Below, one piece after another: positions 25,303-64,000 of a stretch of 64,000 bases of DNA. This stretch comes from Selenomonadaceae bacterium. GTDB taxonomy: Bacteria; Bacillota; Negativicutes; Selenomonadales; Selenomonadaceae. The stretch covers positions 37,353 through 101,352 of the forward strand of contig JALFXV010000100.1 of assembly GCA_022786545.1 (NCBI GenBank), in the 5' to 3' direction. The notes under the pieces were generated by a model. The model was not told the DNA's origin and did no database searches. It saw only the letters and a program-made list of their open reading frames with translations. Every line of letters begins with the position of its first letter. Within the stretch, counting starts at the first letter, position 1. The position numbers and the translations under genes are program-made.

Positions 25303-27012
25303 TTGCGTACTACTAATCTTTATGCACCTACATTACGGGAGACTCCGGCTGAAGCGGAGGTCAGGAGCCATCAGCTCATGCTGCGTGCCGGCATGATCAG
25401 GAAGGCTGCCGGCGGCCTTTATACCTATCTGCCTCTGGCGTGGCGTACTATCAAGAAGATTGAGCAGATTATCCGGGAGGAAATGGACGAGGCTGGCGGC
25501 CAGGAGATTTCCATGCCGATTGTGCAGCCGGCGGAAATCTGGCAGGAAAGCGGCCGCTGGAGCGTGTATGGTGATGAGATGTTCCGGGTGCGTGACCGTC
25601 ATGGCCGCCAGTTCTGCCTGGGGCCTACCCATGAGGAAATGGTGACTACCCTGGTGCGTGACGAAGTGCGTTCTTACAAGCAGCTGCCTTTGATGCTGTA
25701 TCAGATTCAGAATAAGTATCGTGATGAAATCCGTCCCCGCTTTGGCCTGATGCGTGGCCGTGAGTTTATCATGAAGGACTTGTATTCCTTTGACAAGGAC
25801 GAGGAAGGCATGAATCTCTCTTATAAGAAGATGTATGATGCCTACACCCGCATCTATACCCGCATGGGGCTGGATTTCCGCCCTGTAGAGGCTGATAACG
25901 GTGCTATCGGCGGCGGCCATTCCCATGAGTTCACTGTGCTGGCAGCAGCCGGTGAGTCCAACATCGCTTACTGTGACAGCTGTGACTATGCAGCCAGCGA
26001 TGAAAAGGCGGAGCTGAATGTCATCAAGGCAGCAGAGGAAGAAATTAAGCCCCTTGAGAAAGTGGCAACCCCTGAGGCCCACACCATTGAGCTGGTGGCA
26101 GAGTGCCTGAACCTGCCGCTGGAAAAGTGCATCAAGGCAGTGGCCTTCCAGACGGATACTGATGAGCTGGTGCTGGCATTTGTCCGCGGTGACCATGAGG
26201 TAAATGATGTAAAGGTCATTAACCTTATCGAAGGCGCTATCGAGCTCAGGATGGCTGACGAGGCCGTAATTGAGGCGGCTGGCGGCTGCCCTGGCTTCAT
26301 GAGCCCTATGGGCATCAAGGAGGGCACCAGGATTATTGTGGACCAGACTGTCATGGAGATGTATAACGCCTGTGCTGGTGCCAACGAAAAGGATATGCAC
26401 TACATCAACGTAAATCCTAGACGCGATTTCCAGGATGTAGTTGTGGCTGATATCCGCATGGTAAAAGCAGGGGACATCTGCCCTCGCTGCGGCGGCACCA
26501 TCAAGATGACCAGGGGCATCGAGGCTGGACAGGTCTTTACCCTGGGCACCAAGTATTCCAAGGCCCTGGGAGCCACCTTCCTGGACGAGAATGGCAGGGA
26601 GCAGCCGATGGTCATGGGCTGCTACGGCATCGGCGTAGGGCGTACTATGGCGGCTGCCGTGGAGCAGAACAATGATGAGAACGGCATCATCTGGCCGAAG
26701 GCTATTGCACCGTTTGAGGCGGTTGTGGTGCCGGTCAATGCCAAGAACGAGGAGCAGCTGCAGCTGGCTGAGTCCATCTATGCAGACCTGAAAAAGGCAG
26801 GGGTGGATGTGCTTCTTGATGACCGCAAGGACCGTGCCGGTGTCAAGTTCAAGGATGCAGACCTGATTGGCTATCCGCTGCGCATCACTGTAGGCCCGAA
26901 GGCCGTGGCAGAGGATGTGGTGGAGCTGAAAATCCGCCGCAGCGGCGAGACAGTCACCGCTGGCAAGGCCGATGCTGTGCAGAAGGCCCTTGAGCTTCTT
27001 GAGGGATTATAA
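25303..27012 (+). CDS. proS: Prolyl-tRNA synthetase (bacterial type with editing insertion)
   Basis: [48 protein letters not shown] start. Confidence 0.97.
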
Positions 27013-27132: not shown

Positions 27133-27271
27133 GCGGCATGGCGGTGTCAGGTACAGGCATTGAGACGCGCCTCGGTACTTAGCGATTCGCAAGCGTTAGC
27201 GCAGCGAGAGCTTAGTACCGCTAGGCGTGGATAATAGCGAGAGCGTGCCTGACCTGACATTGTCATGCCGC
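27133..27271 (+). repeat. Nested inverted-repeat element, copy A
   Basis: GCGGCATG(27133-27140)/CATGCCGC(27264-27271); TGTCAGGTaCAGGCA(27145-27159)/TGCCTGACCTGACA(27246-27259); CGCCT(27168-27172)/AGGCG(27223-27227); GGTACT(27174-27179)/AGTACC(27214-27219). Confidence 0.85.
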
Positions 27272-27360
27272 CATAATGCCACAATAAAAAATATCCTGTC
27301 AAGAACTTTTACTTGACAAAGCATTTTTCTGTAGCTATAATTATTGAGGTTGACATTTCT

Positions 27361-27894
27361 ATGATGAAAATCAATGTAGCAAACTTAGCTGACCGTCCCG
27401 GTGAGGAAATTCCCTTTGAATTTATCACCAATGCCGGGGAAATAGATGCCATTTCTGATACTTATTCCTTTGAGGGGGATATATCTGTCAGTGGCAGCTA
27501 TGTGTACACCGGTCGCTGTTACCGCTTTGCGGGGCAGATAAGCTGTACCAAGTCCTTTGTCTGCGACCGTTGCCTGGAGCCGTCCTCCTTGCAGCAGGTG
27601 CACGACTTCAACGAGGAGTTCCAGAAGGGCAGCGAGCCTGCATCCGGCGGTGAGAAGGAAAGAATAGTGAATTATTTTGACGGCGATGTGATAGACCTGT
27701 CCCCTGTTATCAGGGATGTGCTTCTGTCCGACCAGCCGCTGAATAATATATGCAACGCTGATTGTCGCGGTCTGTGCCTGAAGTGCGGCGCAAACCTCAA
27801 TCATGGCGATTGTGGCTGTGACCGTACTGTTATTGACCCAAGACTTGCGGCATTGCAGCAATTATTGAAGAAAAATAATTCGAGTATCGAATAA
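27361..27894 (+). CDS. DUF177 / YceD family protein
   Basis: C-terminal [23 protein letters not shown]; immediately upstream of rpmF. Confidence 0.9.
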
Positions 27895-62981: not shown

Positions 62982-63770
62982 ATGGAAATCAGGCTGGATT
63001 GTGATGCGCCGATAGGCGTCATGGATAGCGGCATGGGGGGCATCAGCGTGCTCAGGGAGATGGCAGGGCTGCTGCCCCATGAGAATTTTGTTTTTTATGG
63101 CGATTCTGCCAATGCGCCCTATGGCAGCCGCAGCACGGAGGAAATCTACCAGCTGACGGAGCAGGTGGTGCAGAAGCTTTTAAAGCGTGGCGTCAAGGCT
63201 GTGGTTATCGCCTGCAATACGGCCAGCAGTGCAGCAGGGGCAAGGCTCAGGGCTGAGTATCCTGAGCTGCCTATCGTGGCTATTGAACCGGCACTGAAAC
63301 CGGCTGTGATTGCCTGTCCCGGGGGCAGGGTGGTGGTGCTGGCAACGGAAGCAACCCTGCGGGAGCGGAAGTTTGCCGGGCTTTTGACGGAGTGGCAGGG
63401 AAAGGCGGAGATTATCAAGCTGCCGTTGCCGGGACTGCCGGAGTTTGTGGAGAGGGGAGAGCTTGATTCGCCGCAGCTGCGTGAGTTTCTGCAGGGATAT
63501 TTTGCTCAGCTGGCAGACAGGCCGGTGGATGGCGTGGTGCTGGGCTGCACCCATTATCCTTTTGTCAGGAAGGTGATTGCGGAGCTTCTGGGGCCCCAGG
63601 TGAAGGTGTTTGATGGGGCGGCAGGCACGGCACGGCAGCTGCGCCGCCGCCTGTACAGCCGCCGCCTGCTGACAGCTAGCCAGCAGCCAGGCAGCGTCCA
63701 GTGGCTGAACAGCAGCCCTGAGCCTGAAATGATAGAGCTGTCAAAAAAGCTATTCGCCATCAAAATATAA
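62982..63770 (+). CDS. murI: Glutamate racemase
   Basis: PIGVMDSGMGGISVLREMAGLLPHENFVFYGDSANAPYGSRS; IACNTASSAAG; LGCTHYPF. Confidence 0.95.
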   Translation: MEIRLDCDAPIGVMDSGMGGISVLREMAGLLPHENFVFYGDSANAPYGSRSTEEIYQLTEQVVQKLLKRGVKAVVIACNTASSAAGARLRAEYPELPIVAIEPALKPAVIACPGGRVVVLATEATLRERKFAGLLTEWQGKAEIIKLPLPGLPEFVERGELDSPQLREFLQGYFAQLADRPVDGVVLGCTHYPFVRKVIAELLGPQVKVFDGAAGTARQLRRRLYSRRLLTASQQPGSVQWLNSSPEPEMIELSKKLFAIKI

Positions 63771-63874
63771 ATTTCAGTTTGTCGTAGTGCTTGATCGTTA
63801 CTTCGTGCATATACTGATAGAAATAGTTTGATACTTCGTGGACTCTGTTCAGGCATTTCAAAGGGACAGGTAGC

Positions 63875-64000
63875 GGCAGTACCCATAGAAAACTCGCTCT
63901 CGCTCTTAGCACAGCCTCGCGCTTCTAAGCTCCTGCGTCGCTTACGCTCGCACTCGCTAAGAAGCGAGGCTGCACTCAAGGTTTTCTTTGGGTACATGCC
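63875..64000 (-). repeat. Nested inverted-repeat element, copy B (may run past the window end)
   Basis: GTACCCATAGAAAAC(63879-63893)/GTTTTCTTTGGGTAC(63981-63995); CAGCCTCGC..CTTCT/AGAAGCGAGGCTG inner stem; same skeleton as copy A when reverse complemented. Confidence 0.85.

Follow-up and report, generated by a model that had tools for sequence, protein, structure and literature searches.

A dispersed intergenic hairpin family with a conserved tip in Anaerovibrio and gut Lachnospiraceae

Two hairpin copies in the window

The window (the whole 64,000-nt stretch of DNA that was analysed) contains two copies of a long hairpin element, at the positions given by the first-pass annotation and with arms that match exactly those it quoted. 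Copy A (27133..27272, sense strand +), delimited by blastn, folding and a covariance-model match, is intergenic and lies between proS (25303-27012) and a yceD/DUF177-like gene (27313-27894); genes are simple open-reading-frame calls and their names were read by eye from the sequence. It is composed of a 5' outer arm (GCGGCATGGCGGTGTCAGGTaCAGGCA, 27133..27159, +) that varies from copy to copy, an apical core (CGCGCCTCGGTACTTAGCGA ... GAGAGCTTAGTACCGCTAGGCGTG, 27166..27229, +) that is conserved according to alignment and covariation, a mini-hairpin GC[GAGA]GC with a GNRA loop (27237..27244, +), recognized by folding and loop comparison, and a 3' outer arm (TGCCTGACCTGACATTGTCATGCCGCC, 27246..27272, +) assigned by folding. 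Copy B (63871..64000, sense strand -), identified by folding and a covariance-model match (C35:101220-101352), carries a GCTTCT variant of the core and the same mini-hairpin GC[GAGA]GC (63896..63903, -; sequence and folding), and is cut off because the end of the window is also the end of the contig. On its own, each copy folds into a single long imperfect hairpin, at -89.4 kcal/mol (z -9.1) for copy A and -68.8 kcal/mol (z -6.1) for copy B, and no shuffle of either was as stable.

A clear TTGACA-N17-TATAAT promoter-like site is found between copy A and the downstream gene (window 27300-27340), and copy A is therefore probably outside the leader of that gene. Copy A is 98.6% identical between the source genome and one relative (2 of 145 positions differ), while the adjacent genes are only 92.5-94.4% identical. 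In a closer relative (G001) the core of copy A is gone and the remaining arms pair poorly, a single example of decay after loss.

Size and distribution of the family

When copy A was used as a blastn query, 41 places were found in the source genome (2.6 Mb, 117 contigs), and a covariance model built on 31 source-genome copies gave 123 matches in it. Many copies are at contig ends, as expected, because repeats break assemblies. The first-pass annotation had proposed a repeat family from two copies; further copies, searched for with the genome-wide model, are present in the source genome and in its relatives, and they keep the pairing rather than breaking it. All 15 other Anaerovibrio genomes tested contain matches (from 3 to >54 copies each), as does the sister genus. 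The close carriers picked out by a pattern scan were Anaerovibrio slackiae and a related Veillonellaceae MAG; the scan also hit many rumen Lachnospiraceae, which the covariance model confirmed (E-values 1e-7 to 1e-22). A second model, built on 47 diverse copies, was used for wider surveys, in which 13 of 301 Negativicutes genomes (all of them Anaerovibrio or its sister genus) and 73 of 299 Lachnospiraceae genomes matched, several of the latter with at least 14 copies. The distribution is patchy.

No Rfam 15 family reaches its gathering score on these hairpins; with lax thresholds copy A gives nothing and L107 only a chance match. A search of open-licence papers did not find a description of the family either. 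An origin in phages or plasmids was considered and rejected: copy A has no blastn match in phage and plasmid collections, and none of 11 pattern matches in viral contigs was confirmed by the covariance model. Apparently, this is a large and so far undescribed family, dispersed between genes of Anaerovibrio and of many gut Lachnospiraceae. It occurs in every Anaerovibrio genome tested and in about one in four of the Lachnospiraceae genomes sampled, often in many copies, and is absent from Rfam 15, so that gut bacteria seem to contain here a sizeable class of structured sequence that is not annotated.

Conserved anatomy of the hairpin

The outer stem is about 20-30 bp long or more and its sequence is nearly free. 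The apical helix is conserved (CYCGGTNCTTAGYGA / GAGYTTAGYA(Y)CCGCTAGG) and contains a U-U mismatch, purine-rich internal loops and a fixed 2-nt CT bulge. On the 3' side there is a mini-hairpin of 2-3 bp with a mostly GNRA-type loop (GAGA, GCGA, GCAA, GAAA, GGGA). Such a loop is present in 58 of 62 complete diverse copies, a count that came from a search aimed at GNRA, so that the four exceptions (two with GCCA or ACGA and two with another arm) are the informative number. It looks as if the outer stem closes on the core and the mini-hairpin at a three-way junction, and some copies contain extra arms at this point. Covariation at one internal-loop position is non-canonical: G stands opposite A, and A opposite C or, more rarely, U or A, and G-C is never seen, which in our own reading is suggestive of an isosteric exchange within an RNA motif.

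Six copies (L008, minus strand ~1590-1765; L016, L007, L100, L105 and L140) contain a second structured block of ~150 nt (GAGGATAAATCCTT ... AAGGATTTAGACC) at the same junction, as if it were an extra RNA arm or a nested element; the block of L008 has no match in Rfam. A palindromic repeat, GGGTGAYATGCCGGTGGCATRTCACCC, and a second hairpin are found within the apical loop of L013, L014 and L077, and close by in L016.

Selection on pairing

The proposal of the first-pass annotation that structure is under selection is supported, since stems of different sequence keep their pairing when they are tested against shuffles. RNAalifold gave 36 pairs on 31 source-genome copies, 22 of them changed on both sides. 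In the alignment of 47 diverse copies, standard pairs fill 93.5% of the paired cells (82.7 +/- 0.5% after shuffling) and double changes fill 110 cells (25 +/- 6 after shuffling), the figure of 110 being reached in none of 500 shuffles. Both-sided changes affect 16 of 20 pairs, and pairing drops to 19-45% in slid registers. This shuffle control ignores relatedness and, therefore, the same locus was compared across related species, using eight intergenic sites, each occupied in two to six Anaerovibrio species. At the tyrS-side site, for example, the arms of three species are AGATGGTGGTGCAA/TTGTACCACCATCT, CAAGCAGGAGTGCAA/TTGTACTCCTACTTG and CCGGATAGGGGTGCAA/TTGTACCCCTGTCCGG. Over the eight sites, 59 two-sided changes preserve pairing and 17 break it, with ~94% identity in the core and down to ~70% in the outer stem. 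An out-of-sample set was drawn from 20 other genomes; at least 18 of its 20 copies have long, unrelated, paired outer stems, the outer stem being outside the covariance model used for this test.

Compensatory changes could also arise with no selection at all if template switching copied one arm of the palindrome onto the other. Quasi-palindrome template-switch mutation is a known process (PMC3820800), and the arms of these hairpins are long and evidently recombine, because the elements invert (see below). Such neutral correction would nevertheless wipe out fixed bulges and mismatches (the CT bulge, the U-U mismatch and the G-A loops), and it would produce neither an excess of G-T over A-C mismatches nor a covarying non-canonical pair, which makes it improbable as the general explanation, although it may contribute to the turnover of the outer stem. 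Stems that change in place with their pairing kept, together with flips between sister species, amount to a natural experiment that separates selection on RNA structure from palindrome correction at the DNA level.

Inversion in place

At five of the eight orthologous Anaerovibrio sites (loci L231-L269; covariance matches and sequences), the whole hairpin, including the asymmetries of its outer stem, is inverted between species within a collinear gene neighbourhood. Recombination of one arm with the other, or a template switch between them, is the probable route. Because the hairpins invert in place, their orientation shows no bias relative to neighbouring genes (19:18) or to replication proxies (34:36, with replication direction only approximated). 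Most copies are solo; close copies are arranged divergently, in 12 of 12 pairs within 270 bp over three lineages, and so are 31 of 34 neighbouring pairs overall.

These data bear on the idea that the hairpins are transcription terminators or gene-control leaders of the neighbouring genes. The copies are intergenic, often less than 100 nt from a stop codon and within biosynthetic operons, as a terminator or leader might be. This role is very doubtful given that both orientations are equally frequent relative to genes, that orientation flips at the same site, that the neighbouring genes have no common class and that no U-tract was seen by eye 3' of the hairpins. An origin by insertion into pre-existing terminator hairpins was also rejected, on the grounds that U-tracts are missing and the outer stems co-evolve in place.

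The selected strand and its chemistry

Mismatches left over in a stem are expected to be G-T and A-C in equal numbers in double-stranded DNA or under neutral arm correction. Among 67 sequence clusters, the single mismatches near the core are 40 G-T versus 10 A-C, with the G-T pairs spread across many positions, and the sense arms fold better than the antisense ones in 60 of the 67; the clusters still share ancestry, and p-values are to be taken as indicative. Among the 20 out-of-sample copies, the advantage of the sense strand is smaller (15:5 for the outer arms and 11:9 for the whole hairpin). The sense strand is preferred whatever the direction of the neighbouring genes (18/19 co-directional, 14/18 opposed, 9/9 and 7/7 mixed), and this constancy in every gene context may be due to inversion. 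On this sequence evidence, one defined strand is selected.

G-T pairs, GNNA loops and sheared G-A pairs can be accommodated in DNA hairpins too, so that a single DNA strand is a possible substrate. The use of G-U pairs and GNRA loops as markers of the transcribed strand follows reasoning applied before (PMC2864571). The first-pass annotation had left the choice between an RNA and a DNA hairpin undecided; the G-U excess on one strand, the mostly GNRA loops and the covarying non-canonical pair favour RNA. Most simply, the selected strand would act as RNA, with a single DNA strand as the alternative. As a point against the RNA reading, no conserved promoter was seen by eye.

If the sense strand were selected as single-stranded DNA, its hairpin would be recognized by a mobility enzyme (of the HUH/Y1, integron-like or another type), as IS200/IS605 ends or folded attC sites are. 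A strand preference independent of gene direction, the divergent neighbours that recall REP doublets (in particular all close pairs) and a multi-copy, patchy distribution would all agree with this possibility, which we consider unlikely for several reasons. The Y1 transposase domain (Y1_Tnp, PF01797) was not detected in the well-covered carriers G013, G014, G015 and G313 and is common in non-carriers; replication proxies reveal no strand bias; and pairing has been kept at fixed loci long after insertion. In integron attC sites, the conserved R'/R'' core (GTT) forms the base of the folded strand, whereas the bases of these hairpins are variable. Target-site duplications of solo copies were sought in three core-less comparisons (copy A in G001, L238 and L072), which showed partial deletions or unrelated sequence and no clean empty site.

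A TA-flanked composite carrying copy B

A murI-like gene is followed directly by TA and the repeat AATTTCAGTTTGTCG, with copy B beyond them. The left terminal inverted repeat (TIR) of the composite that carries it is AAATTTCAGTTTGTCGTAG (63769..63787, +; C35:101121-101139), with TA at 63768-63769. Complete composites elsewhere in the source genome are ~800-950 bp long and contain a TIR (AATTTCAGTTT), a reverse hairpin, a central GCTGACGA hairpin, a forward hairpin and a second TIR. Composites of this kind were noted at L081:992-1806, L270:602-2766 and L073:785-2319, among others, besides the one from window position 63769 onwards. TA is present at most composite ends that could be read, and no clean empty site was among the sequences compared. 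The source genome has ~90 matches to the TIR versus 4 to the reversed pattern. The composite looks like a non-autonomous TA-inserting transposon that has captured the hairpin family.

The first-pass annotation had considered the repeat MITE-like, a description that suits copy B, inside its TA-flanked inverted-repeat composite, and fails for copy A, which has no such terminal repeat nearby. More generally, an ordinary MITE would make pairing a by-product of the terminal inverted repeats of a TA-inserting IS630/Tc1-like element, as the composite ends and the number of TIR matches might lead one to think. The TIR is absent from copy A and from many other solo copies, what is conserved is the tip rather than the ends, no shared ends are seen among the Lachnospiraceae copies that were examined, and compensatory change goes on in place. 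This explanation, highly improbable for the family as a whole, is refuted for solo copies and holds for the carrier of copy B.

A few composites contain central open reading frames, among them those of L073 and of L074, the latter Rpn-like by eye. Another (L022, C56:33207-33548) is a 340-bp composite with a single chimeric hairpin that has mini-hairpin arms on both sides, a structure that may be taken as evidence of recombination between copies. The bio operon of C60 was considered as captured cargo and discarded, the right-hand hairpin being a separate solo copy without terminal repeat. An unrelated short repeat (~145-178 bp; L262:1348-1525) occurs in dozens of copies in G002, G006, G008, G014 and G015.

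Proposed function

With a probability that we put at roughly 0.55, this is a non-coding family of dispersed intergenic hairpins whose function lies in the fold of one strand, secondary and probably also tertiary, most likely as RNA. The best reading is an ERIC/BOX-like structured RNA element whose conserved core would be a binding site. Transcription would reach the hairpins from either flank, by read-through or as antisense. The outer stem would act as a clamp, rigid enough to be a barrier, and a trans-acting factor, either protein or RNA, would dock on the core together with the GNRA hairpin. By analogy with ERIC, BOX and Correia repeats, the element could alter how stable the neighbouring transcript is or how it is processed. 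Being inverted repeats, the arms make the element invertible and randomize its orientation; the unbiased orientation and the context-independent strand preference imply that a cis function through read-through fits poorly unless inversion is fast. In the source genome, the family would have been further amplified by its capture in the TA-flanked inverted-repeat transposon found at the site of copy B.

A more ambitious and tentative proposal is that the hairpins form a new class of bacterial structured RNA, with a three-way junction and a tertiary fold in which the GNRA hairpin would dock on a helix containing sheared-type non-canonical pairs, the fold being a site for a shared trans partner or for catalysis and its invertible intergenic carrier persisting for long periods at fixed sites and having spread between Negativicutes and Lachnospiraceae.

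Comparison with known interspersed repeats

ERIC sequences of enterobacteria are imperfect palindromes of ~130 nt that are intergenic, transcribed and present at orthologous sites. The hairpins resemble them in being imperfect palindromes at orthologous intergenic sites, but ERIC sequences are conserved along their full length and the hairpins only in the apical core and the mini-hairpin. The features expected of an ERIC/BOX-like repeat that were observed, reading the sequence only, are dispersal, intergenic location and a long hairpin. The RUP elements of Streptococcus pneumoniae are TA-inserting and IS630-related. In this species, BOX, RUP and SPRITE are small dispersed intergenic repeats with extensive secondary structure (PMC3049150), and structured BOX beside transposon-like RUP recalls the hairpin beside the composite described here. 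Compared by description, BOX is modular (boxA-B-C), while the hairpins have an invariant tip on a free-sequence outer stem and, unlike BOX, occur in two Firmicutes classes and invert in place.

REP sequences are 20-40 nt long, with a conserved tagged base and an associated RAYT, and REPINs have conserved ends and a variable spacer hairpin (PMC3116915, PMC3733652). The hairpins share with REP/BIME and REPIN elements their palindromic, extragenic and high-copy nature, divergent doublets and compensatory changes (PMC3116915, PMC3733652). Inverted doublets are indeed found, but not a short palindrome with a conserved tagged base, since outer stems and bases differ among the 67 clusters. The REP-type identity suggested by the first-pass annotation was accordingly abandoned: it is the tip that is conserved and the base that is free, and Y1 transposase does not track the family. 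The Correia (NEMIS) elements of Neisseria are MITE-like and fold into transcript hairpins that are processed by RNase III (general knowledge and PMC3049150); they have conserved terminal repeats and a TA duplication, whereas the solo hairpin copies have no conserved ends. By kind, the family belongs among the interspersed structured repeats (ERIC, BOX, Correia and REPIN), from which it is set apart by its invariant tip on a free-sequence stem, its frequent inversion in place, its presence in two Firmicutes classes and, likely, a three-dimensional RNA core.
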